A stretch of 64,000 nucleotides of DNA from a virus: the IMG/VR virus record IMGVR_UViG_3300042448_001920, positions 1-64,000 of that record. One strand, 5' to 3'. The translations under genes and the position numbers were made by a program. Under the pieces are notes generated by a model that worked only from the letters and a program-made list of their open reading frames with translations, was not told the origin of the DNA and did no database searches. This document shows positions 8,156 to 50,695 of this stretch, in pieces (position 1 is the first letter of the stretch; each line of letters starts with the position of its first letter).

Positions 8156-10918
8156 TTATATTGGCGCAACACCAAAATCAACAATATAATTTGCGGTACC
8201 GTTTCCATTTTGTGACATTGTTTTTTTAATCCACTCACCCATCATAACAGGATCTGAATCATAAAAGTCTTTTGCATTTATTTTTTGAGTACCGTCTTTA
8301 GTTTTTGCTTCAATCTCACCATTCACAACAACCGTAATTGTTTGTTCACTAGAGTTGGCAGAATTTGAATACTTATTAGCGTTTAATTCCGAAATTAATG
8401 CCATTGCTGATCCAGGTGAAGCTGAAAAAGCTTTACCGTTTGATAGTGCTAAATAATCATTAACTTTTAAACTTGCATCAGATATTTCAGCACCTAGTTC
8501 TTGTGGTACAGCGTCAATACCTATTATGCTTTTTAATTCTTCGTTATTACCTTTTAATGCTTCTGATATTAAATCTTGTTTAGCTTGGTTACCACCAGTA
8601 AAAAGATCTGAAAATTGTGCCCCACTAGCGCTAAAATTAGCTACCGCCCTATCAGCCAAATAATCAGCGGCACTAGTCCAACCAACCATATCAGCAGCTG
8701 TCATACCAACAATGTCAACAGCACCACCAATACCAGATAGTATACCACCTAATAAATCGTCACTCCACCCAGCTTGGTTTTGTTCTTCCCTTGTTTTCTT
8801 AACTATTTCGGTTAAGGCACCCTTGTTATCAATACCCATTGCTTGTGCTATATCCCTTGTTTTTTTATCTTTAGTTTCCATAGCAATACCAGCTTTCCAT
8901 AAAGATTCACCGACAGTTGGCACGTCTTTCATTGCTTTAAGTATTTCACCAAATAAGATTTTTACATACGGTATAACACCATCTAAAACAAAACGCACCA
9001 CTTCATTGAATATCGTACCTATTTTTTGGAAAAAAGTTTTGTTTTTATCACCCATGATATCTCTTATACCCTTTATAAAATCCTTAAAACCAGCTAAAAA
9101 CAAATCCATACCAGTTCTAAATGTACCACCTGGGCTAAACAAATCTTTCATAAGTGGTATTAATGTTGCGGCTATTTCTTTACCTAAGGTTTCAATCTCA
9201 TTCAATAAACCGCTATCAGCTAAAAGTTTATTCAACTCCGTAAATAAAGGTGTTAAACCAATTGCAAATCTTTCTAATATATTATTAAATCTATCTTGTA
9301 GTGTTAATCTTTGTTTTGCGGCTTCTTCATTAGCTGTTCTTTGTGATAAAATTTGTCTTAATTGATCTTGGCTTGTTATATTACTAACCAATTGGCTAAC
9401 ACCGTTAGCCATTTTAATTTCATATTGACCTTTATCGTTTACTGTCATTAAATTAGCCAATGCCTGTTGGTCGTCATCACTAAAACCAATTAAAGAACCT
9501 GTGGTTTTTGTTAAGTTATTTAATTTGTCAGCTGTTCTAGCTTGCTCTATACCAGCATTAACAATATCATCATAGTTTTGTCCAAGTGCTTCAGCGGTCT
9601 CTCTTAATATTTGACGTTGCGCTGGTGGTATTATAAAATCACCATTTTTGTTTTTAATGGCTAAACTTTTTGCTGAAGTTATTAATTTTTCGGCCATACC
9701 ATCCGCATTGTTCATCGAATCGTACATTAATTGGAACGGGTCACCAAACATTTGTGCAAACTCACCGCCAAGAACTTGTATCTTAGCCGCAGCTTCCACA
9801 GCCTTTTCTGGGCTAAAGAAAGCATCTTTAAATGATTTAATTGATTCAGCTAAGTTAAATCTTAATGATTCGGCTTTAGCGGCTAGTTTTGTTAAACCCT
9901 CAACGCTTCTACCAAAACCAGATCCTGTTAAAGCTTTAACAACATCTGTTGTTGTTTGTAATAATTTTGTTTGATTAATATTAAATCTAGCAGCCTCATT
10001 TCTACCTTTTTGGGCAACTTTAAGTGTTGTACCTAATGAATACCCAACATTATCAAATTCAGCAACCATTTTGGTTACACCCTCAACAGCTAATCCAGTA
10101 CTATTACCAAGATTAACAATATCGGTAATTTCTTTAGTACTAAAAATTCTGTTTTTACCAGTTGCTTCACTAAAACCTTTTATGATCTTGCCAACGTCTT
10201 CTATTTTACCACCATACTCAAGTATTTCGTTGTATATTGTTGGCATCGCATCTAATAACTGGTAATACTCTTTACTTGTCATACCAATATCAGCGGATAA
10301 GGCACCTACAACTTTTTGCATTTCTAGGAACAGTTTCCAAGCTCTTTCTATCGGGAAGATGATTTTAAAAATTGCTTTACCAATATCCCAAGCAGTACTT
10401 AAAATACTACCAAATAAACTAAATAAACCACCAAATACGTTAGTTAATGTACCACCAACTTTACCAAATAAATCAAATGCTCTACCCAAACCACTTACGG
10501 AACCTTTAGCTGTTTGGTAATTTACTTCTTGTATCTCTTTTTCAAGTTCAAGTTGCTCTTTTTTCTTTTTAACCAACTTAGCTGCTTCTTTGTTACCCCT
10601 TTTTTCAAGTTCATTAGCGACTTTACCCATATTAACAATCTCATCTTCGGTTTTTTTAAGATTTTTCTTAGCTTTTCTAAGGTTATCAGCGTCTTCAGCC
10701 ATTTCCTTAGCAAATCTTTTTAAGTTACCCCATATTGATTGTGTTTTTAAATCCCACTCTCTACCAGCAGCTTTTTTAGCGTTTATGGCATCATACATAG
10801 ACAACATCTTATTGATGTGGTCTTCTTCTTGTGTTTGGCTTATAATACCCTTTTTTCTGGCATCCGTTAACTTGTTTAAAGCCCCGTCCAAATTGTTAAA
10901 AAAATCTGCTTGCGCCAT
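8156..10918 (-). CDS. Tape-measure-like tail protein A (920 aa)
   Basis: The N-terminal 130 residues are charged and coiled-coil-like (KKKKEQLELEKEIQEV). A glycine- and phenylalanine-rich hydrophobic stretch follows (about 135-185), then a long helical core from residue ~200. That core is visibly paralogous to the next upstream gene: shared blocks include MPTI-NE, NLGYSL/NVGYSL, GLTKL/GMTKL, KDAF, LGGxFA and DPxxLM. The architecture (coiled coil, hydrophobic transmembrane-like segment, large size, place beside tube, sheath and chaperone genes) fits a tail tape-measure protein, which sets tail length and may exit into the cell envelope. The C-terminus (MSQNGNGTANYIVDFGVAPI) differs from the paralog. 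Tape-measure role is inferred from architecture and context. Confidence 0.75.
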   Translation of the reverse strand: MAQADFFNNLDGALNKLTDARKKGIISQTQEEDHINKMLSMYDAINAKKAAGREWDLKTQSIWGNLKRFAKEMAEDADNLRKAKKNLKKTEDEIVNMGKVANELEKRGNKEAAKLVKKKKEQLELEKEIQEVNYQTAKGSVSGLGRAFDLFGKVGGTLTNVFGGLFSLFGSILSTAWDIGKAIFKIIFPIERAWKLFLEMQKVVGALSADIGMTSKEYYQLLDAMPTIYNEILEYGGKIEDVGKIIKGFSEATGKNRIFSTKEITDIVNLGNSTGLAVEGVTKMVAEFDNVGYSLGTTLKVAQKGRNEAARFNINQTKLLQTTTDVVKALTGSGFGRSVEGLTKLAAKAESLRFNLAESIKSFKDAFFSPEKAVEAAAKIQVLGGEFAQMFGDPFQLMYDSMNNADGMAEKLITSAKSLAIKNKNGDFIIPPAQRQILRETAEALGQNYDDIVNAGIEQARTADKLNNLTKTTGSLIGFSDDDQQALANLMTVNDKGQYEIKMANGVSQLVSNITSQDQLRQILSQRTANEEAAKQRLTLQDRFNNILERFAIGLTPLFTELNKLLADSGLLNEIETLGKEIAATLIPLMKDLFSPGGTFRTGMDLFLAGFKDFIKGIRDIMGDKNKTFFQKIGTIFNEVVRFVLDGVIPYVKILFGEILKAMKDVPTVGESLWKAGIAMETKDKKTRDIAQAMGIDNKGALTEIVKKTREEQNQAGWSDDLLGGILSGIGGAVDIVGMTAADMVGWTSAADYLADRAVANFSASGAQFSDLFTGGNQAKQDLISEALKGNNEELKSIIGIDAVPQELGAEISDASLKVNDYLALSNGKAFSASPGSAMALISELNANKYSNSANSSEQTITVVVNGEIEAKTKDGTQKINAKDFYDSDPVMMGEWIKKTMSQNGNGTANYIVDFGVAPI

Positions 10919-10946
10919 ATGTTAAATTTAATTATTATTGCTTAAC

Positions 10947-10954
10947 TATAAATA
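10947..10954 (-). promoter_or_regulatory. Late-promoter-like motif TATTTATA
   Basis: AATATTTATAG in the sense direction, 36 nt before the ATG of the tape-measure-like gene ending at 8156, in the short gap between the two paralogs. It implies separate transcription of copy A. Confidence 0.6.
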
Positions 10955-10971
10955 TTAAACATTCTATTTTA

Positions 10972-13560
10972 TTATGAATTATAGACCATTTGGTTTATTA
11001 TTTGTTTAGACACAATATTCGTTGCGTCTTTAACACCATTATTATCTAAATCATGTTTTGTTAAATCTATTGTACCAGTTAAATTCAATTTAACAACTGG
11101 TTTTTTTGCTGTAGCTATTTGATTAGCTTTTTGATCAAAAAATAAAATAGCGTCATCTTTTCTACCTTGCATTATCTGGCCATTTGCAAAAACAAAAGGT
11201 GTTTTTGGATCAAATAATTTTAAACCAAAATTATTATCTGTTTTAAACGGTACACTTGCATTTGAAGAACTTTGCCCATAATTCATAAAACTAGGTATTG
11301 GTACGGTATTAAGTCCTTTAAAAGTTTTTTCATTTTCAACAACTTTTTTATTAGCCTCTTCAATTTTTGTTTGTAAACTGGTTAAATCACTTAAATTAAT
11401 TTTTTCAGATTCATCATCAGCATATCTGTCATTGTATGTTTTTACATCTTTTATTAAACCTGGTAAGGCTTCTTTAGCTAAAAAACTATTTTCACCAGCA
11501 GATAAAACGGATTTAGCTTTTAAATTTAAACCATAACCTTTAACCGTATCACTTTTAATTAAACTACCTATACCTTCAATTGCCATACCACCAACATATG
11601 TTATATATGGTAAAACATCTTCTTTAAAAAAAGAAAAAATTAAAGAACCAGACTCACTAATTTTTTGACCTATGGTTAAATTCGGATCTTTCCATATATC
11701 AAATAATTTACTAAAAATATTTTTTACAAAAGTAAAACCCGCTAACACATCTTTACGAAAAGAACCATTGTTAGAAAATCCTTGGTGTATGAAATCAATC
11801 ATGTTAATTGTTATATCCTTTGCTAAGGAATCAAGATCACCAATTGTGTTATGGTTATTAAAAAGGTTATTTAATTCAACAAAAAATTGCGAAAACCCAA
11901 TTGAAAACCTATCAAGTACGATAGATAATCTTTCTGCCAATGTTTTTCTAAGTAACGCAGACTGTTCGTTTTTTCTTTCTTGATTTAAGATACCATATAT
12001 TTCTGAGGTACTTGGTGTTTCAGATAAATTTTGTATAACCCCATTTGATAACCTTATACTATAAGATCCATCTTCATTCATTGTCATTAGATTTGTCAAT
12101 AAATCTTTTTGGTCATCATTTAAACCAAATGTTGCTATACCTTTTTTTCTTAAAGCTTCTATTTTATCCTCATATTTAGCGTCCTCAATTGCTGCGTTAA
12201 ATAATTCGTCAGCATCTTGATTCATTGCCGTTGCAAACTCCCTGATTAATTCACGATCAGCTGGTGATATTTGAAACCCGTTTCTACCCTTAAAAGCTTT
12301 ACCTTTAACAACTTCCATTAAATCAGCTGTTAACTGTAAAGGATCTTCAATACTTTTAGCCATCAACATCATTGGGTCGCTGAAATAAAAAGCAAATTTA
12401 CCACCAAGTAATCTGGCTGTTGCAGCCGCCTCAATTGCTGTTTCTGGGTCAGTGAAAGCATCCTTAAAAGCCCCGACACTTTTTTTAACATCAATTCTAG
12501 CTTTTTGAGTTTTGATAATTAGTTTGGTCATACCTTCTAAACCCTTCTCAATACCAAACCCAGTTAATTCAACAACCAATTCACTAGCTTTCTTAAGAAT
12601 CGTTGTTTGGTTCTGAGAAACCGCCATTGATTTTTTTCTAACAAAATCGGTGAATTTTAATGTTCTGTCTAAAGAATATCCAAGGTTTTCAAAATTACCT
12701 ATAAGTTCACCAGCGGCATCAACACCAAGCCCTGTACCTAAACCAAGCTCAATTATTGATTTAAATTCAGTACCACTAAAAACTCTATTTCTATTTGTTA
12801 ATCTATTATAGGCATCGTAAGCCTCACCAACTTGCTCAATGGTACCACCAACATCTAAAACTTCATTCATTATTGTTGGCATCTGATCTAAAAAATTTTT
12901 AGATTCACTCGCAATTAAACCAGAGTCAGCCGCAACACGACCAACCAATCTTTGCATTTCTAAAAATTTTTCATAAACAGCACCAACCCCAAATTCAAAA
13001 TCAAGTAAATTTTTTGCAAAAGAAAAAGCAACTTTAACAATACTTAAAGCCACTCTAAATAAAGCTTTTAAAGCACTCCACGCTAATTTAGCGACAAGCA
13101 TTATTATGGCCAAATATGGGTTACCACCTTTGGCGCTTGATTGAACAGAATCAGCAACGTCATCCATTGCATCTTTAATATTTTTTTCAATTTCAAGTTG
13201 TACCCTCTTTTTAAATAACTCTTGACCTAATTCGGTTTTATTATCTTTTATCGCCTCGTTTTCTTTTTCTTTAAAAAGGTTTATTTGATCTTCAAGAAAT
13301 ATTAAATTCTCTTTTCTTTTTTGTCTTTCTTTGTATAGTTTGTGTTTTTCGGCTTGGATTCTTTTAAAATAAGCGTATAAACCTTCATTCTTAGAATCCC
13401 ATCTATACATTTCTTTTTTCTGGGCAATAGCATCGTTATACGCATCAATTACATCTTGTACGTACCCCTCAATCATTTGTTGTGAATCGGTTGAAGCTGC
13501 CGTGTTAACTTGCAACTTTTTAACCATTTCATCTATTGCTGATGCTATATCTCCTTGCAT
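10972..13560 (-). CDS. Tape-measure-like tail protein B (862 aa), paralog of A
   Basis: Same plan as copy A: charged coiled-coil N-terminus (about 1-125), hydrophobic alanine/valine/phenylalanine-rich segment (about 145-190), then the shared core beginning with MQRLVGRVAADSG at residue ~200 (copy A: MQKVVGALSADIG at the same position). The C-terminal 200 residues diverge and end in an asparagine-rich tail. The start codon is one nucleotide from the end of the preceding gene, so the two are probably co-transcribed from the motif at 14335. Two full-length tape-measure-like proteins side by side is unusual; they could be alternative, co-assembled, or one could have become a hub or plug protein. 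Confidence 0.75.
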   Translation of the reverse strand: MQGDIASAIDEMVKKLQVNTAASTDSQQMIEGYVQDVIDAYNDAIAQKKEMYRWDSKNEGLYAYFKRIQAEKHKLYKERQKRKENLIFLEDQINLFKEKENEAIKDNKTELGQELFKKRVQLEIEKNIKDAMDDVADSVQSSAKGGNPYLAIIMLVAKLAWSALKALFRVALSIVKVAFSFAKNLLDFEFGVGAVYEKFLEMQRLVGRVAADSGLIASESKNFLDQMPTIMNEVLDVGGTIEQVGEAYDAYNRLTNRNRVFSGTEFKSIIELGLGTGLGVDAAGELIGNFENLGYSLDRTLKFTDFVRKKSMAVSQNQTTILKKASELVVELTGFGIEKGLEGMTKLIIKTQKARIDVKKSVGAFKDAFTDPETAIEAAATARLLGGKFAFYFSDPMMLMAKSIEDPLQLTADLMEVVKGKAFKGRNGFQISPADRELIREFATAMNQDADELFNAAIEDAKYEDKIEALRKKGIATFGLNDDQKDLLTNLMTMNEDGSYSIRLSNGVIQNLSETPSTSEIYGILNQERKNEQSALLRKTLAERLSIVLDRFSIGFSQFFVELNNLFNNHNTIGDLDSLAKDITINMIDFIHQGFSNNGSFRKDVLAGFTFVKNIFSKLFDIWKDPNLTIGQKISESGSLIFSFFKEDVLPYITYVGGMAIEGIGSLIKSDTVKGYGLNLKAKSVLSAGENSFLAKEALPGLIKDVKTYNDRYADDESEKINLSDLTSLQTKIEEANKKVVENEKTFKGLNTVPIPSFMNYGQSSSNASVPFKTDNNFGLKLFDPKTPFVFANGQIMQGRKDDAILFFDQKANQIATAKKPVVKLNLTGTIDLTKHDLDNNGVKDATNIVSKQIINQMVYNS

Positions 13561-27418: not shown

Positions 27419-30400
27419 ATGGCCGAATACAAGATTTCCCTTGAAGAGATAGAAAAGTTTTTAAATGGGCACGATGATGAAAAATACATCGTGAATGTTG
27501 AGTATGATGCCGAAACTAATCTGATCCATAAGATTAAACAGGACCCAGAGAGGGGTAATTATGTTGAAACAGAGCCTCTGTTGGCTTTTATGTGGATTAA
27601 AAACCTTAACAAGATTAAGGAAATAGTTAATTTTTACGGAAATAGTGATTCAAAAATCAAAGCCGCTAGACAAAGATACGGCATTGAAATCAAATCTTTA
27701 GGTGGGGATCACCCTAAATTAATTGATGGTTATAAATATTTGGTAACTTGTAACCAGGGTCAAAAAAGAATGTTAGAGTTCTTTAGAGAGGGTGGTATTT
27801 TTGTCTATGATACTAGACATGATATTAAATCACATTTTTTGATGTTATCACCTGTTGAGCAGTATTTTATACACACTGGTAAAAGATTATTTAAAGGGTT
27901 TGAGGAGTATGATGAAATCCACAAATTCATATTTGACTTAGAGACAACAGGTTTAGATCCAGCAATCAACCGTATTTTTTTAATTGGTATCTACACTAAC
28001 TTAGGTGTTAGAGAAATCATACCCATTGAAGATAATGATGAGTCTGAAAGACAAGGTATTATAAAATTCTTTGAGAAAATCAATGAGATTAAACCAACAA
28101 TTATTGCTGGATATAATAGTGCAAACTTTGACTGGCCATTCTTCTTTAAAAGATGTGAAATTCTCGGGTTAAATATTCAGGATATTGCTATAACACTAAA
28201 AGTTGGTGAATTAATCAACAACAAAGATAGCATGTTAAAATTGGGTAATGAGGTTGAAAACTACACCCAAACTAATATGTTCGGTTACAGTGTGATTGAC
28301 ATTATCCACTCCGCTAGACGTGCCCAAGCTATCGATTCTAGTATGAAATCTGTTGGTTTGAAGTATGTTTGTAAGTACAACAAGATCGCTAAAAAGAATC
28401 GTGTTTACATTGTTGGCGATAAAATCGGTGATACTTGGTATTCTGAAAGCAAGTTTTATTTTGATGATAGAACGGGCGCATACGCTAAAACAAAACCCGC
28501 TTTAGAGTTTATGGATTACATTCGCAGAGAAGATATCCAAGCTAATCCAGATAAAGTTTTTGTTTTTGGTGATAACATGATAAGACAGGGACTTGGTGGC
28601 CAGGCTAAAGAAATGCGTGGTGAACCAAATGTTATTGGTATTGTAACTAAACATACACCAGAATCAAACCCAGAGTCTTATTTTAATGACAAAGATTTTG
28701 AGGATATTAAAAAACATATCGATGCCGATGTTAATCAAATAATCGAAAAGATTAAACAGGGTAAAACAATTGTCTTCCCTAAAATGGGTATTGGTACAGG
28801 TTTGGCTCAATTAGATATGCGAGCACCAAAAACATTCAAATACCTAGTTGGTTTATTACGTGCATTACGTGAATATATTAATACATTTCAAGAGGTTGAT
28901 GGTAGATACATCGTTGAGCGTTACCTGATTGATGACTTATGGGAGACCATGGAAGTTGACGATGTTTATAATCAATCATCATTCTTGTTGGCTAAATTAG
29001 TACCAACAACATACCAAAGGGTATCAACTATGGGTACCGCTGGTTTGTGGAAACTACTGATGATGACATATTCATTTGAAAATGATTTGGCCATACCAGT
29101 ATCTGATGTTAAAAGAGATTACACTGGTGGTTTATCGAGATTGTTTAAGGTCGGTTACTCAACGACTTTAAGAAAGATGGACTACAATTCACTTTACCCA
29201 GCTATTCAGTTGGCCCATGATGTATTCCCAGCTGTTGATGTTAACGGTGCGATGAAATCGATGTTAAAGTATTTCCACACTGAACGTTTTAAAGCCAAAA
29301 ATTTGGCTAGTAAATACAAAAAAGAAGGTAACTATCAGTTAGCTGACAAATACAAACGTAAGCAGTTACCACTTAAGATCTTCATTAACTCAATGTTCGG
29401 TGCCTTGGGAGCACCTATGGCTTTCCAATGGGCTGAGATTGATGTCAGCGAACGTATTACATGTACGGCAAGGCAATACCTTAGACTCATGGTCACATTT
29501 TTCCTTAAACGAGGTTACACACCCTTGGTACTTGATACGGATGGTGTGAACTTCATGGCCCCTAAGAATGGTGAACCATTTACTTATGTAGGTAAAGGTT
29601 TTAATGATGAGGTTGAGGCTGGTAAAGAATATAAAGGTGTCAAAGCTGTTGTGGCTGAATTTAATGATACGTACATGCGTGGTGAAATGGGTCTTGGTTT
29701 GGATGGTATTTGGCCAGCAACCATAAACTTATCAAGAAAAAACTACGCTTTATTAGAAGATGATGGAACGATCAGTTTAACTGGTAACAGTATTAAATCA
29801 AAAGCTATGCCCGTTTATATCGAAGAATTTTTAGGTAAGGGTATGAAAATGTTATTAAATGGACATGGTTACGATTTCGTACAATATTACTATGAATATG
29901 CTGAAAAGGTGTGTAATAAGCAAATACCGTTATCTAAAATCGCCACAAAATCTAGGGTTAAGAAATCAATAAACGCTTACATAAATCGTGGTGGTGATAA
30001 AAACGGTAAACAATTGGCTAAACAAGCCCACATGGAATTAGCTATTAAACATAACCTAGATGTTAACCTTGGTGATACAATTTATTACGTTAATAACGGT
30101 AAAACTAAATCACACGGAGATGCCCAGGAAGATAAAAACGGTGAAATGTATGCTACATTAGTACCGAATGACATTATCGAAAACCAACCAGATTATATTG
30201 GTGAATACAATGTACCAAAATATTTGGAAGCTTTAAATAAAAAAGTTGAGCCTTTGTTAGTTGCTTTCCCACTTGAAGTTAGAGATAAAATCCTAATTAA
30301 AAAATCTGGTGAAAGAACAATGTTCTTAAAATCTGAGTTAGAATTAGTGAATGATCAACCAACAGATATTGAAGATCAGGATACTTTGGAAGAATTTTTT

Positions 30401-30517
30401 ACACCGTCCCAAATGGAAAAAGAATTCTGGGCTAAAATGGATTATGAATCAGACTATTGGTTTTCTGACGAAATAACATTCAAAATACCTGGTTTAGATG
30501 AAGAATTTACAGTTTAG
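27419..30517 (+). CDS. Family B DNA polymerase with an inserted macro-like domain (1032 aa)
   Basis: Exonuclease motifs: Exo I FDLETTG (D173, E175), Exo II AGYNSANFDWPFF, Exo III in the YSVIDIIHSARR region. Polymerase motifs: A D588-YNSLYP, B KIFINSMFG (N657), C D706-T-D-G. Between exonuclease and palm, about residues 366-489, lies a separate domain with VFVFGDN (380-386), GLGGQAKEMRGEPN and FPKMGIGTGLA. These motifs define a family of small stand-alone phage proteins with a macro-like look. The flanks (TGAYAKTKPALEF before, FQEVDGRYIVERYL after) are ordinary PolB sequence, and no intein end motifs are seen, so the domain is retained in the mature enzyme. Host-type early promoter upstream. 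Confidence 0.95.
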   Translation: MAEYKISLEEIEKFLNGHDDEKYIVNVEYDAETNLIHKIKQDPERGNYVETEPLLAFMWIKNLNKIKEIVNFYGNSDSKIKAARQRYGIEIKSLGGDHPKLIDGYKYLVTCNQGQKRMLEFFREGGIFVYDTRHDIKSHFLMLSPVEQYFIHTGKRLFKGFEEYDEIHKFIFDLETTGLDPAINRIFLIGIYTNLGVREIIPIEDNDESERQGIIKFFEKINEIKPTIIAGYNSANFDWPFFFKRCEILGLNIQDIAITLKVGELINNKDSMLKLGNEVENYTQTNMFGYSVIDIIHSARRAQAIDSSMKSVGLKYVCKYNKIAKKNRVYIVGDKIGDTWYSESKFYFDDRTGAYAKTKPALEFMDYIRREDIQANPDKVFVFGDNMIRQGLGGQAKEMRGEPNVIGIVTKHTPESNPESYFNDKDFEDIKKHIDADVNQIIEKIKQGKTIVFPKMGIGTGLAQLDMRAPKTFKYLVGLLRALREYINTFQEVDGRYIVERYLIDDLWETMEVDDVYNQSSFLLAKLVPTTYQRVSTMGTAGLWKLLMMTYSFENDLAIPVSDVKRDYTGGLSRLFKVGYSTTLRKMDYNSLYPAIQLAHDVFPAVDVNGAMKSMLKYFHTERFKAKNLASKYKKEGNYQLADKYKRKQLPLKIFINSMFGALGAPMAFQWAEIDVSERITCTARQYLRLMVTFFLKRGYTPLVLDTDGVNFMAPKNGEPFTYVGKGFNDEVEAGKEYKGVKAVVAEFNDTYMRGEMGLGLDGIWPATINLSRKNYALLEDDGTISLTGNSIKSKAMPVYIEEFLGKGMKMLLNGHGYDFVQYYYEYAEKVCNKQIPLSKIATKSRVKKSINAYINRGGDKNGKQLAKQAHMELAIKHNLDVNLGDTIYYVNNGKTKSHGDAQEDKNGEMYATLVPNDIIENQPDYIGEYNVPKYLEALNKKVEPLLVAFPLEVRDKILIKKSGERTMFLKSELELVNDQPTDIEDQDTLEEFFTPSQMEKEFWAKMDYESDYWFSDEITFKIPGLDEEFTV

Positions 30518-45516: not shown

Positions 45517-47421
45517 ATGGGTTCACAAAGCGAAATATTTTCAAGATATAGATCACTAGTGGTTTCTAATAATCAGAAACCATATGCTACTAATGCACAA
45601 AAAAAACTAGACAAATTAGAGTTCGTTGACTTCTTAGTTGAGTTAGTAAAATCAACCAGAGGTCAAAAAGAATTTAAAAGTTTAATACTAAAAGGTAGTT
45701 TATCTCAATTAAAAAAATTCGATGATATCAACAAGGTTATTGTTGATAACATTATTGCTTTATTTGGGTGTGACGATAATTTAGTTATACCACAAAAATA
45801 CACAACTTTAGCCGCTGGGGGTATAGAAATTAATAAACAAGAGATTGATTCTTTTGGTTTATTAAATATCGACCCAGATAGTAAGACTGGTAAATTGATG
45901 TATGAAGGTAACGACATCACCAAACACGTAAATTACTTTTTTAGTAAATCACAAAACGCTATAAGTGACGCTCCACTAGAACTTAAAAAAGGTAATAGAG
46001 TTTTATTTACTTTATACGCAAAAGATTCATCAACATTTGTTTTTAAATTCGGTGAGTTTTATTCTAAAAAATTATTTTCAGATTTTTTAAAGGATTATTT
46101 AACCGTAGCAACACCAGTATTTAATTTCCCCAATTTTATGGCCATATTAATGGATATATTAACTGGGGCTTTATCTGTTAAAGCTAAATTAAATAAAAAG
46201 ATTATAGTAAAACAAAGCGCCTTAATTAAAGGTTTAAAGAAAATGTTTGGGTTTTGTAATGAGGATGATACAGAAAAACCAGACTCATCAAATAAATCAT
46301 TTTTAGATAAAGAATTTAATCCAGCTGACGCTCAAAGAAATGGTGAGGATAGCGGTATTTTAAATAATGATGCGGATTTCGATAACGTGTTTAATTTTAA
46401 TAAAACCGAACTTGACGATATCGAAAATACTGGTAATCTAAGGGCAAATGGGTTTTTAAGGTTCTCATCTTGTGGTAATCTTGATGTGGCTATAAACCCA
46501 GATGACATTTTAAACTCATTAGAGGAATTGTTTAATAATAGTCAGGGTGATAAATTACTATTTCCAGGTGAAAACCCGCAAGATGTGACGCCACAAGCAA
46601 ATGACTCCTTGACCGATAATTCTAAAAAAATACCTAATCTCGATCAAGCGTCCGATGTATTGGATAAAGCCTTAAAAAACGGTATTAATGATATTGTAAA
46701 TTCAGGTGAAATTAACGCAGCGATTAATTTACCTAATATTAACGCTGAAATTCAATTAAATATATTAAAAGCTATCCCTTATGCGTTAATGCAAATGATA
46801 ATAACACCAAAATTAATGATGGTCCCTAAATTGTTTTTAGTGTTAAAGGGTGATGATAGTAAAAAATCACCAGAAGAAATGATTTCTTTTGTAAGACCAT
46901 TGATTAAAAAAATTGGTAGTTTTATAACGGATTTATTGGTTAAAAATATATTTAACTTAATAAAAAAAGATTTAATTGGTTTGGCTAAAAAAATAAGTGC
47001 TGATTTCTTAAAACAAAGAGGTCTTGATTACATATCATCATTAAAAAGTTTATTAGCTCTTTTAAAGGCTTTAAAAGGTTTCAAAGTGGGTGGCTGCCAA
47101 TCAATAATAGAACAAATACTTCGCTTATTAAAATTATTGAATGTAACACCTATGCCACTTATACCACCACCATTAGTTTTATTGGGTGGTGCCTTAAAAC
47201 CAGGGTTAAACCACGTATCAATGATAAATGATCTTAAATCTAATTTAAGTGAAAAGGGTATTGAGACAGCTGCAACATTCCCAGACGGGACACCAAATCA
47301 TCTTATGATCGCTTTGGAAGAAACGATGAAAGTTATGGTTTCAAGCATAAAAACAAACGCAAAGGTTGAGGTAACAACAACAGGAGTTGGTCTTACAACA
47401 GGCTTTGGACAAATACAGTAA
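45517..47421 (+). CDS. Large virion protein, probably baseplate-associated (634 aa)
   Basis: No family recognised. The N-terminal ~230 residues are mixed alpha/beta; residues about 235-400 are acidic, asparagine-rich and probably disordered; the C-terminal part alternates amphipathic helices (NLIKKDLIGLAKKISADFLK) with a proline-rich hydrophobic stretch (TPMPLIPPPLVLLGG) and ends in a thr/gly tail (VTTTGVGLTTGFG). The hydrophobic helices suggest membrane contact on injection or a hub position. It heads a run of proteins, one of which has a gp5-like OB region. Confidence 0.6.
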   Translation: MGSQSEIFSRYRSLVVSNNQKPYATNAQKKLDKLEFVDFLVELVKSTRGQKEFKSLILKGSLSQLKKFDDINKVIVDNIIALFGCDDNLVIPQKYTTLAAGGIEINKQEIDSFGLLNIDPDSKTGKLMYEGNDITKHVNYFFSKSQNAISDAPLELKKGNRVLFTLYAKDSSTFVFKFGEFYSKKLFSDFLKDYLTVATPVFNFPNFMAILMDILTGALSVKAKLNKKIIVKQSALIKGLKKMFGFCNEDDTEKPDSSNKSFLDKEFNPADAQRNGEDSGILNNDADFDNVFNFNKTELDDIENTGNLRANGFLRFSSCGNLDVAINPDDILNSLEELFNNSQGDKLLFPGENPQDVTPQANDSLTDNSKKIPNLDQASDVLDKALKNGINDIVNSGEINAAINLPNINAEIQLNILKAIPYALMQMIITPKLMMVPKLFLVLKGDDSKKSPEEMISFVRPLIKKIGSFITDLLVKNIFNLIKKDLIGLAKKISADFLKQRGLDYISSLKSLLALLKALKGFKVGGCQSIIEQILRLLKLLNVTPMPLIPPPLVLLGGALKPGLNHVSMINDLKSNLSEKGIETAATFPDGTPNHLMIALEETMKVMVSSIKTNAKVEVTTTGVGLTTGFGQIQ

Positions 47422-47423
47422 AT

Positions 47424-47642
47424 ATGAATAACCCAAAATTAAAAGAAATTTTTGAAAACGTTGAGAAAAAATCTAATAAAGATTTAGCAAGATTATTAGT
47501 TGCTTTAAAAAATGATTTTGAAGATGTTAAAGAAACTGCTCTAAGGTTAACAGCTACAATGGAAGAGGTTGAAATGACCTACGATAAAGTTTATAATGAA
47601 TTAAAAGAAAGGTTAAAATTCGAAGATAAAAATGAAGGCTGA
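47424..47642 (+). CDS. Small coiled-coil protein (72 aa)
   Basis: Entirely helical with heptad-like hydrophobic spacing (LKEIFENVEKKSNKDLARLLVALKNDFEDVKETALRL). Starts 2 nt after the upstream stop and overlaps the next gene by 11 nt. Small coiled-coil proteins in this place are often tail or baseplate chaperones, but no specific family is recognised. Confidence 0.65.
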   Translation: MNNPKLKEIFENVEKKSNKDLARLLVALKNDFEDVKETALRLTATMEEVEMTYDKVYNELKERLKFEDKNEG

Positions 47643-49305
47643 ATTTAGTTTAGGTATTTGTTTCAACAATGGTGATCCGTTAAACCACGGAAGAATTCTC
47701 GTTGCCCCATATGAAGAATATAAAGGACATGTTTCTTATGTTTCAATTGAAAACGCCATTGATCGAATCAATATCAGTTCTACTAAATATGAAAAATGGT
47801 CTGATAGGGGTATATCCAACACTAAAACTAGTGACCCGTATGTTGCAACACCATTTTTACCTAATCAATTATCGATAATACCAAAACCTGGCCAAGTTGT
47901 TAGATTAATTAAATTTGATGATGGTTCGATAAATTATATTGGGCCAATAACACAAAACCCTCTAACATTAAACACAACATATTTTGAGGAAAATAGTAGA
48001 AGAAAATTTCCAGTATCTGATGATATATCAAATAGCATCAATGATGCGGTTTTTTCTGGTTATAATAATGAACAAGTTTCGCTTGGTAACGATAGGATCT
48101 TACTAAGATTAGATCACCTATCTAACAGAACCAGAAAAAAAACATACCCAATATTCCAATTATCTAAATTTACAAAAACAATAAATTATGCGGTTAAAGA
48201 TGTTACTGAAACTGTTAAACCAGATGTTTTTTTAGACTATATTATTGAAATAACTTTTGACTACAGTAGAAAAGAAAATTTTGAAAGTAAAAATATCGTG
48301 TGTAGTGTAAATCTATATAACACTTTAGAGGTTGTAACTACTAAACAAAGCAACCAATCTAATGTTGTTAAAGGTTTAATGAAGAAAGATTATAGCAGGT
48401 TCCAAGATTACACATCTGGTGCAAACTATAACCAATATACTGTTAACCATACCTTAGAGTTTAATGATGTTGAATCAATGGACAAAGCTATTGAAGAAAT
48501 TATATCATCATATAGGACCAAAAAAATTAAATACTATAATCCACAATTAATAGGTACCCAAAAAATTGAAACACAGTTTAATACGATTACATTAAGCAAT
48601 AGGATACCTTTTAGGGCCAATAATGCTGGTGCTAACCACGACACACCAGATGAAGTTGCTGATTTAAAAAACTTTGTTGTTAGGATAAACCCAAATAGTA
48701 GGGATTTATACACAAAACCTAGTGCTGATTTACAAAACAAACTCAATATACCAGCAACGCAACCAACTGATAACACAACACTTAACTATATTAGGTTTAC
48801 TGAATTTAATAAATTCATAACTAAAATTAAAAAATATAATAACGAAAGATTTTTAGGTGACCAAGAATTACAATCACCTGTTACAACAACAAGTAAAAAA
48901 ACTCAAGAGAGTTTAACTGATAAAGAAGTTACTGTAAACGTTAATTACGCTGATAAATTTTTATTTTTAAGTAGTATTAACTCAAGAGACTACCTAGAAA
49001 ATGCTAGAGAAGGTATGAGTAATGAAACTATTTCAAAATTTTTATCAAATTTATCTGTGGATGATTCGGGTAGAACTTACCAAACTTACGGGTTTGTTAG
49101 GGGTGAAAAAATTCTTGAACTTTTAGATCAAATTTTAGCTGTTTTCTTATCCCACGGGCATTCCATCGGACAATCTGAAGGGTCTTTAAGTAATAATGCC
49201 GTTGAATTAATTAAAAATTTAAGAGGTGATATTGCGCAAGAAATAAACGGAAACACAACAAATTCAACAACAAAGATAATTAACCATAACTTACGTCTTA
49301 ATTAA
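47632..49305 (+). CDS. Baseplate protein with gp5-type OB-like N-terminal domain (557 aa)
   Basis: Residues about 1-115 resemble the OB-fold N-terminus of phage hub proteins: NNGDPLNHGRILVAPYEEYKG, then DPYVATPFLPNQLSIIPKPGQVVRLIKFDDGSINYIGPI, with the P-K-P-G-x-x-V signature typical of those strands. The middle (about 130-330) is beta-rich and the last 80 residues hold a helix with LELLDQILAVFLSHGHSIG. No lysozyme domain is visible, unlike T4 gp5. Likely part of the central hub or spike region of the baseplate. Confidence 0.6.
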   Translation: MKAEFSLGICFNNGDPLNHGRILVAPYEEYKGHVSYVSIENAIDRINISSTKYEKWSDRGISNTKTSDPYVATPFLPNQLSIIPKPGQVVRLIKFDDGSINYIGPITQNPLTLNTTYFEENSRRKFPVSDDISNSINDAVFSGYNNEQVSLGNDRILLRLDHLSNRTRKKTYPIFQLSKFTKTINYAVKDVTETVKPDVFLDYIIEITFDYSRKENFESKNIVCSVNLYNTLEVVTTKQSNQSNVVKGLMKKDYSRFQDYTSGANYNQYTVNHTLEFNDVESMDKAIEEIISSYRTKKIKYYNPQLIGTQKIETQFNTITLSNRIPFRANNAGANHDTPDEVADLKNFVVRINPNSRDLYTKPSADLQNKLNIPATQPTDNTTLNYIRFTEFNKFITKIKKYNNERFLGDQELQSPVTTTSKKTQESLTDKEVTVNVNYADKFLFLSSINSRDYLENAREGMSNETISKFLSNLSVDDSGRTYQTYGFVRGEKILELLDQILAVFLSHGHSIGQSEGSLSNNAVELIKNLRGDIAQEINGNTTNSTTKIINHNLRLN

Positions 49306-49307
49306 AA

Positions 49308-49315
49308 TATTTATT
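49308..49315 (+). promoter_or_regulatory. Late-promoter-like motif TATTTATT
   Basis: AATATTTATTACT directly before the ATG at 49319 (11 nt from motif start to ATG), as close as the copy at 8122. Confidence 0.45.
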
Positions 49316-49318
49316 ACT

Positions 49319-50695
49319 ATGGGTATATACAGAACATATTTTGATAAAAACAACACAATCGTTAAAGATAGTGATGTTAATACTGGCAGAAATCAAGTGT
49401 CAGAGCTATATTTTGGTAATCTCATCAGTAGGTTTTTGTTTTATTGCTCATTTGATGAAATCAGAAATCTTGTCGATTCTGGTGTTATCAATTTAAACGG
49501 AAACGTAAGACATATATTAACTATTAAGAATACTAGTAGTTTTGATATTAAGGATATATTAACTATAGATAATAATTTAAGATTCGGTGATTACTATAGA
49601 CCAACATCTTTTGATGTTGAGTTACATGGTGTTAACCAACTTTGGGACGAGGGTAATGGGTATGATTTTGTCACTGGTATAAGAACTTTCCCACAAAACA
49701 TTGAGTATGTTTTAGGGCCATCAAATTGGACTAAAGCTACAAATACGACTAATTTTACCACATCTGGTGTTGTACCTAACGGAGCTACACCAATAGCAAC
49801 TCAACATCTGGATTTAGGTAATGAGGATATTAAAATGGATATAACAAACTTTGTTAATTCAATTATAAGCGGAGCTACAAGTGGTACAACCTATAACGGT
49901 TTCTGCTTAAAGTATTCAGATGCTATTGAAGCTTTAACATTCCCTGATAATAGAACTTGCGCTCTTGGTTTATTCACAAGACACACACAAACATTTTTTG
50001 AACCGTACATTGAGACAATATATGATGATCATATTGACGATGAAAGAGTTACATTCTATTTAGGTAAAGAAAATAAATTGTTTTTTTATTCGGTTATCAA
50101 CGGTAAACTAGAGAATCTAGACCAATTACCTACTTGTACTATTAACGGTACAACATATACAGTTAACCAAAAAACAAAAGGTGTTTATTACGTGACTGTT
50201 GATGGTGATGAGTCAACCTTTGTTAGTTACACAGAATCTAACGACATTTGGAGTGACATTATTTATAATGGGAATGCTAGACCTAACGTTAAATTAAGAT
50301 TTGTCCCAATTGACGCTGATAAGTACTATAACTTTAATATAGATGCTTTGGATGATACCAGATATGGTTTATCTTTGAGTGGTATAAAAGTTGGTGAGGG
50401 TTTACAACAAGGTGAGCAAAGAAAAGTTAATATCCTTTTAAGAAAACCTTATACTGTTTCAGAATACTACGTTAGTAATAGTGTTTACTACAAGTTATAT
50501 GTTAAACAAGGCCCAGCTGTTATTGATATTTTTGATTGGCAGTTGGCAAATAAAGCGTTAAATAATAATTATTTCACAATTGATACAACCTGGTTGGTAC
50601 CACAAAGATATTTTGTTGACATTAAAATTGAAACAAACGGTGAGGTAACGTTACACAGTAACGAATTACATTTTGACGTTGTGAATAAAGCTTAA
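49319..50695 (+). CDS. Virion structural protein (458 aa)
   Basis: The N-terminus MGIYRTYFDKNNTIVKDSDV is of a type repeatedly seen in baseplate or tail proteins of Bacteroidota myoviruses, though I cannot name the family. Overall beta-rich with many Y, N, T and G residues; contains a DFYRPTSFDVELHGVNQLWDEG-like stretch and several aromatic pairs. A short gap with a late motif precedes it. Probably an attachment or baseplate-wedge component. Confidence 0.65.
   Translation: MGIYRTYFDKNNTIVKDSDVNTGRNQVSELYFGNLISRFLFYCSFDEIRNLVDSGVINLNGNVRHILTIKNTSSFDIKDILTIDNNLRFGDYYRPTSFDVELHGVNQLWDEGNGYDFVTGIRTFPQNIEYVLGPSNWTKATNTTNFTTSGVVPNGATPIATQHLDLGNEDIKMDITNFVNSIISGATSGTTYNGFCLKYSDAIEALTFPDNRTCALGLFTRHTQTFFEPYIETIYDDHIDDERVTFYLGKENKLFFYSVINGKLENLDQLPTCTINGTTYTVNQKTKGVYYVTVDGDESTFVSYTESNDIWSDIIYNGNARPNVKLRFVPIDADKYYNFNIDALDDTRYGLSLSGIKVGEGLQQGEQRKVNILLRKPYTVSEYYVSNSVYYKLYVKQGPAVIDIFDWQLANKALNNNYFTIDTTWLVPQRYFVDIKIETNGEVTLHSNELHFDVVNKA

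Follow-up and report, generated by a model that had tools for sequence, protein, structure and literature searches.

To our knowledge, replicative polymerases rarely take whole extra domains inside their exonuclease domain. A reading frame in a phage record of 66,101 bases (IMG/VR record IMGVR_UViG_3300042448_001920, of which positions 1 to 64,000 were analyzed and are called the window below) raises the question of how such a domain came to lie in a family B DNA polymerase (PolB) and what it does there. An initial annotation, made from the sequence alone, had described a polymerase with a macro-like domain, assigned to DUF7831, between exonuclease and palm, and had suggested binding of an ADP-ribose-like or nucleotide ligand.

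A phage family B polymerase carrying an additional domain

The reading frame (27419..30517, + strand) is open over 1032 codons, as initially annotated, and encodes a 1032-amino-acid (aa) protein in which PolB domains flank DUF7831: hmmscan against Pfam placed a PolB exonuclease domain at residues 206 to 316, DUF7831 at 363 to 477, and a PolB domain at 610 to 690. PHROG matches were phrog_262 (DNA polymerase) and, at residues 362 to 474, phrog_2072 (unknown function). An AlphaFold model of the whole protein (65-row alignment, pLDDT 87.7) found its best PDB matches in the archaeal PolBs KOD and 9N (E ~3e-29); the model was judged on pLDDT, and the orientation of the insert relative to the exonuclease site is provisional.

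Catalytic motifs were compared with those of 78 further polymerases. The Exo I motif D173-x-E175 (FDLETTG; 27935..27943, +) is invariant in all 79 sequences, as are D238 of the Exo II motif GYNSANFDW (residues 231 to 239; 28109..28135, +) and Y502, D505, and D506 of the Exo III motif YLIDD (Y502 to D506; 28922..28936, +). Polymerase motif A, DYNSLYP (D588; 29180..29200, +), and motif C, DTDG (D706 and D708; 29534..29545, +), are likewise invariant. Residues of Exo I, II, and III and of Pol A, B, and C thus identify the protein as a family B DNA polymerase, and D173, E175, D238, Y502, D506, D588, K653, N657, D706, and D708 are the same in 79/79 polymerases, fused or unfused.

The window also encodes a portal protein (phrog_213), large terminase (phrog_2), tail sheath (phrog_23), major head protein (phrog_138), and helicase (phrog_62), a set that indicates a contractile-tailed phage, with modules that we take to be T4-like. 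A search of the phage sequence for tRNAs found none. Five large open reading frames of 458 to 920 aa, at positions 8156-13560 (-) and 45517-50695 (+), had no PHROG match at E<=1e-5.

The insert is a complete DUF7831 domain ahead of Exo III

Alignment of fused and unfused PolBs delimited an inserted segment at about residues 359 to 488 (28493..28882, +), which stands in for a linker of 11 to 29 aa. Residues 363 to 477 of this segment (28505..28849, +) belong to DUF7831 (PF25176), which confirms the family named initially: E values were 1.2e-44 by hmmscan and 1.5e-47 in a genome profile search, scores reached 151 to 156 bits against a curated cut-off of 27 bits, and the match covers positions 2 to 116 of the 118 in the Pfam model.

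The motifs named in the initial annotation are all present. VFVFGDN (residues 380 to 386; 28556..28576, +) forms a strand plus loop, with the strand at 379 to 386 in the model, and its G384, D385, and N386 are conserved at 98 to 100% among 55 stand-alone DUF7831 relatives. The motif GLGGQAKEMRGEPN (residues 391 to 404; 28589..28630, +) is also conserved in these relatives, at 96 to 100% for G394, Q395, A396, R400, E402, and N404. A near-invariant Thr-Lys pair, T410-K411 (28646..28651, +; 100% and 98%, respectively), comprises candidate ligand or catalytic residues and aligns with the TK of a family of small proteins like N4 gp14. Finally, the GIGTG loop (residues 457 to 461; 28787..28801, +) contains G459 (100%) and G461 (98%). 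The invariant positions thus cluster in the loop motifs GDN, GxGGQA, RGEPN, TK, and GIGTG, the pattern expected of a ligand site.

The placement of the insert differs from that first proposed. Exo II residues N233 to D238 precede it, and in an alignment with P. abyssi PolB the query pairs, from residue 494 on, with sequence starting at Exo III (KYSMED/RYLIDD), where YLIDD faces YSMED. The domain lies about 13 residues ahead of the Exo III tyrosine. With Exo III downstream, DUF7831 is embedded in the exonuclease domain, flanked by Exo II and Exo III, and not placed between exonuclease and palm. The whole-protein model agrees in its order of elements, with a strand at 345 to 348, the inserted domain at 361 to 487, a strand at 491 to 494, and a helix at 495 to 517 that carries Exo III. 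As judged from the aligned residues, insertion immediately before Exo III left the active-site residues of both polymerase and exonuclease intact.

Structure prediction of the isolated domain (residues 357 to 504, 60-row AlphaFold alignment) gave a pLDDT of 92.6 and a pTM of 0.85, with the order strand-helix-strand-loop-strand-long helix-strand-loop-helix; within the whole-protein model, the insert retained a pLDDT of about 91 to 93. Fold matches in BFVD included DUF7831 proteins of Tupanvirus, Caulobacter phage Seuss, Hyperionvirus, and RHph_N34 (E values of 5e-14 to 4e-11, TM scores of 0.78 to 0.82), and the predicted fold is thus common to the insert and stand-alone family members. On the strength of these models, we are confident that the insert is a discrete, independently folding DUF7831 domain, in agreement with the initial view of a domain inserted in the enzyme.

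The fused polymerases form one clade

Searched with the full-length protein, IMG/VR yielded 33 loci, 24 of them with the complete fused protein; at five others (L026, L028, L031, L032, and L033), the insertion site held a short linker only. More fused and many unfused polymerases came from scans that used either DUF7831 or a PolB alignment as query. Altogether, about 30 IMG/VR contigs from many metagenomes shared both the insertion and its site; one of them (L015) encodes a protein identical to that of the window. The non-redundant aligned set comprised 79 polymerases, 23 fused (the window included) and 56 unfused.

In a tree of the PolB core from which the insert was left out, the 23 fused proteins formed one clade (support 1.0) among the 56 unfused sequences. 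The insertion site spans 134 columns in 23/23 fused proteins, compared with the 11- to 29-aa linker in the unfused ones. Consistently, all PolB-borne domains grouped together in a tree of 101 DUF7831 sequences (support 0.988). One clade of polymerases and one group of inserted domains point to a single derived insertion, which is the simplest reading of the two trees. The common ancestor of one clade of myovirus-like phages therefore acquired, in a single event, a complete DUF7831 domain in a linker of the PolB 3'-5' exonuclease domain.

The initial annotation named two outcomes that would count against it, namely no independent fold in the segment or an ancestral segment unrelated to the stand-alone family, and neither was observed. 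We rejected an ancestral segment lost elsewhere, as the fused proteins are a single clade among insertion-less relatives; chance or a chimeric assembly was rejected as well, given recurrence in about 30 contigs from many metagenomes. The insertion-less PolBs (such as L028 and L147 to L213; PHROG 262) resemble that of the window and share its motifs, with about 45 to 57% identity over the exonuclease and palm regions for L028 and L031, but have the short linker where the window polymerase has a domain of 130 aa. Seven insertion-less contigs, possibly fragments, contained no stand-alone DUF7831 gene, the presence of which would have pointed to conversion of a gene into a fusion. Among the matches listed for GenBank phages, PolB and DUF7831 matches fell in separate records, none with the fusion, and no mention of DUF7831 was found in the literature searched. 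Overall, the domain insertion is real, well supported, and apparently undescribed.

In-frame insertions in phage PolB genes are often inteins, and the insert could in principle be one, or some other mobile or self-removing element, and be absent from the mature enzyme. The polymerases of L031 to L033, interrupted at motif C, lend this idea some plausibility. The segment in the window, however, matches DUF7831 and no intein or homing endonuclease family in Pfam, lies in the linker before Exo III rather than at a catalytic motif, and in the model grows straight out of an exonuclease hairpin; its length is fixed across the clade, and stand-alone DUF7831 genes exist. We rejected the intein reading, which is largely refuted and in our estimate extremely improbable.

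The three interrupted relatives (L031:9956-14362, L032:9965-16183, and L033:3686-9818) are broken up at or beside motif C (DTDG, near residue 707), either by some 340 additional aa or by a split into separate reading frames; these are probably inteins or introns.

Constraint and loop remodelling within the insert

Between clades, the insert is 45 to 58% identical, compared with 80 to 91% for the flanks, and its dN/dS is 0.25 to 0.46 versus 0.03 to 0.12. Within clades, insert dN/dS falls to 0.05 to 0.11 in the motif-intact clade of the window and to ~0.08 in the group of L014, L016, and L019; with dS near saturation, all of these dN/dS figures are rough. They indicate that the insert is under purifying selection within clades.

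Motif loss was scored on residues conserved at >=95% in the 55 stand-alone relatives. Two PolB-borne sublineages, together 7/23 fused proteins, have lost several family-invariant residues of the glycine loops. Both the L010-L018 group and the L014/L016/L019 group have substitutions at G384, G394, and A396; D385 is replaced in 6/7 of their sequences, and G461 in the L014/L016/L019 group. Both groups retain N386, R400, E402, N404, T410, P454, G459, and P470, as well as K411 except in L016 (R), so that TK is kept in 22/23 fused proteins. The L009/L021 pair has only the GIGTG loop altered and is placed differently in the insert tree and the core tree, a conflict that makes recombination within the insert possible. 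The core motifs GDN and GGQA persist in 16/23 fused proteins, including the earliest-branching lineages, and GxGTG in 14 of those 16. Probably, then, the ancestral fused domain had intact motifs, and two lineages remodelled their glycine loops.

These patterns bear on a structural or interaction role, in which a folded add-on contacts a replisome protein or alters the polymerase surface and ligand binding is irrelevant in the fusion. A length fixed at 134 columns while the sequence outpaces the flanks would suit such a role, as would the low dN/dS of the L014/L016/L019 group despite its degraded loops. A changed surface could also evade defence systems that recognize phage polymerases, and defence systems have been suggested to drive polymerase diversification (PMC11348598, PMC10684548). 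Against this, the GDN and GGQA motifs of 16/23 proteins are kept under strong purifying selection, and a pure spacer would not need them. We regard a structural or interaction role as possible but somewhat doubtful; where the loops have been remodelled, in the two sublineages, the domain probably has either a structural or interaction role or a changed ligand.

Relation of DUF7831 to macro domains

By eye, macro domains (PF01661; YmdB, Appr-1-p, and TARG1/DarG types) resemble DUF7831 in the order strand, glycine loop, strand, helix, GxGTG, but direct profile and fold comparisons gave no significant match. No match to Pfam Macro (PF01661) was seen in 60 DUF7831 members at E values up to 10, within HMMER's filters. 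Foldseek of the domain model against the PDB returned a best E value of 0.15 and no macro domain among the best 50 of 269 matches, and PDB sequence searches with the domain or its profile gave nothing meaningful. In hhalign, DUF7831 scored probabilities of 0.7% (YmdB type) and 4.6% (Appr-1-p type) against macro profiles, near the best shuffled controls, whereas the positive control of macro against macro reached 97.5%. Macro membership is thus so far unsupported by Pfam, Foldseek, and hhalign, and so are the macro fold and ADP-ribose binding suggested in the initial annotation.

A remote relation to the N4 gp14-like family was indicated. Here, hhalign probabilities were 72% (A4) and 87% (stand-alone set) over 85 columns, with pairwise E values of 3e-5 to 4e-6 and scores of 35 to 43 against 27 for the best of 60 column shuffles. 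The alignment pairs FVFGDN with FVFGSN, TK with TK, and GIGTGLA with IGCGLAG. The result amounts to remote profile homology, not to membership of one family. The gp14-like proteins (FVFGSN..PTKD..IGCGLAG) have the same motif order as DUF7831 but are separate small proteins with GSN for GDN and a C in the IGCG loop, and no polymerase fusion was seen among them. Match regions L226 to L305 belong to this family (FVFGSN..PTKD..IGCGLAGY) and have no Pfam family over the cut-off.

The best PDB match of the gp14-like profile was TARG1 (OARD1), aligned at ITK and IGCGL but not significant (E=0.21), and 2/43 gp14-like members had a weak Pfam Macro match (best E 0.03). The TARG1 lysine in this alignment is presumably the catalytic K84. 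The chain from DUF7831 through the gp14-like family to TARG1 may be a weak, indirect link to macro domains. Relatives of a divergent macro protein from Hymenobacter were also sought, with one further match in 198 genomes of its phylum and none in a viral scan. We put forward a macro fold and ADP-ribose binding of DUF7831 as a hypothesis and not as a finding.

A specific form of this hypothesis is de-ADP-ribosylation of the DarG/TARG1 kind, in which the insert would remove ADP-ribose from the template at the fork or tolerate it there. By ADP-ribosylating phage DNA, DarTG blocks replication, a block that T-even phages escape through mutations in PolB (PMC11348598, PMC11481870); this makes the proposal attractive and directly testable. 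Reversal of thymidine-ADP-ribose uses a catalytic lysine, K84 in TARG1 and K80 in the macrodomain of DarG (PMC8501950). The near-invariant TK of DUF7831, present in 22/23 fused proteins, aligns, through the gp14-like family, with the ITK region of TARG1. This chain of homology is, however, not significant at its last step, Foldseek recovered no macro domains among the best 50 matches, these phages have no known association with a DarT system, and DUF7831 has alanine where TARG1 has its second catalytic acid, which we take to be D125. Removal or tolerance of template ADP-ribose, a special case of the ligand module that we prefer below, is unlikely in our judgement.

DUF7831 in other proteins and gene neighbourhoods

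Most relatives of DUF7831 are stand-alone genes. They were found in 99 records of annotated phages, chiefly large phages of alphaproteobacteria, in a few plasmids, and in bacterial genomes, some of them on mobile elements of Acidobacteria; by fold, the domain is also present in giant viruses and in crAss-like phage proteins. The window insert keeps the motifs of this family (PF25176; PHROG 2072), but known members stand alone or within other giant proteins, whereas that of the window sits inside a polymerase exonuclease domain.

Several further, independent fusions were seen. DUF7831 lies within a protein of >3,400 aa (L074:3-10379 and L075:3-6383), with domains of the N4 virion RNA polymerase seen in L074, a second, independent fusion of DUF7831 to a phage polymerase. 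A 3,000-aa phage protein (L098:1317-10316) that resembles a polyvalent injected protein has a weak SNase-like match, a cpYpsA SLOG domain, and DUF7831 in tandem. Another giant protein (L109) joins DUF7831 to a 2OG-Fe(II) oxygenase-like match, and in an Acidobacteria sequence (L335) the domain forms the N terminus of a 1544-aa protein with DUF488.

In apparently mobile elements of Acidobacteria (L321 to L350), DUF7831 recurs beside a single-stranded-DNA-binding protein (SSB) and a relaxase-like protein; by raw neighbour counts, the median distance to SSB is 125 bp over 13 non-independent loci. A raw listing of neighbours of stand-alone DUF7831 genes includes rIIA/rIIB, SSB, SNF2 helicase, YAcAr SLOG, and DUF4326, and in Rhizobium phage RHph_TM61 a 3'-5' exonuclease like DNA Pol III epsilon is two genes away. 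On one contig, a DUF4326-YAcAr SLOG fusion protein (L105:73-789) lies ~4 kb from DUF7831. SLOG/YAcAr and DUF4326 have been predicted to act in NAD/ADP-ribose networks that bridge to replication and modification (PMC7824862). The fused phages sampled had no Macro, YAcAr, or DUF4326 genes and no enrichment of NAD-salvage genes.

Discussion

The analysis shows the insertion, its predicted fold and single origin, the intact enzyme residues, the constraint, and the partial motif loss; that the domain binds a ligand, what this ligand is, and that it works at the fork are inferred. Our preferred reading, held tentatively, is that the insert is a module for a nucleotide- or ADP-ribose-type ligand that acts in cis. 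DUF7831 would be a small domain that binds or processes such ligands at nucleic acid machinery in phage-host conflict, and its fusion to PolB would put this activity at the primer-template end of the fork. There, when a nucleotide-derived modification stalls the polymerase, it might recognize or remove this modification; alternatively, it might sense a nucleotide signal and tilt the enzyme toward synthesis or toward proofreading. Counter-defence against DNA ADP-ribosylation is one possible use. In favour of the ligand-module reading are the single derived insertion, the confident predicted fold, the intact catalytic residues, the low insert dN/dS in the motif-intact clade, the invariant loop motifs, the independent fusions, the gene neighbours of stand-alone copies, and the remote relation to the gp14-like family. 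The lack of a significant fold match in the PDB, direct macro profile comparisons at noise level, the 7/23 fused proteins without several family-invariant loop residues, and the absence of Macro, YAcAr, and DUF4326 genes from the fused phages sampled all weigh against it.

A bolder version would make the insert an in-cis eraser or reader of ADP-ribose or nucleotide adducts beside the proofreading site, directed against toxins like DarT, with DUF7831 as a minimal, hitherto unrecognized macro-like family put to the same use on virion RNA polymerases and injected giant proteins; we give it a rather small chance.

DUF7831 also occurs on virion RNA polymerases, in giant phage proteins, and in giant viruses. 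Its function would thus bear on the protection or control of nucleic acid synthesis by viruses, and an insertion of single origin with motif-intact and motif-lost descendants offers a ready-made natural experiment on that function.
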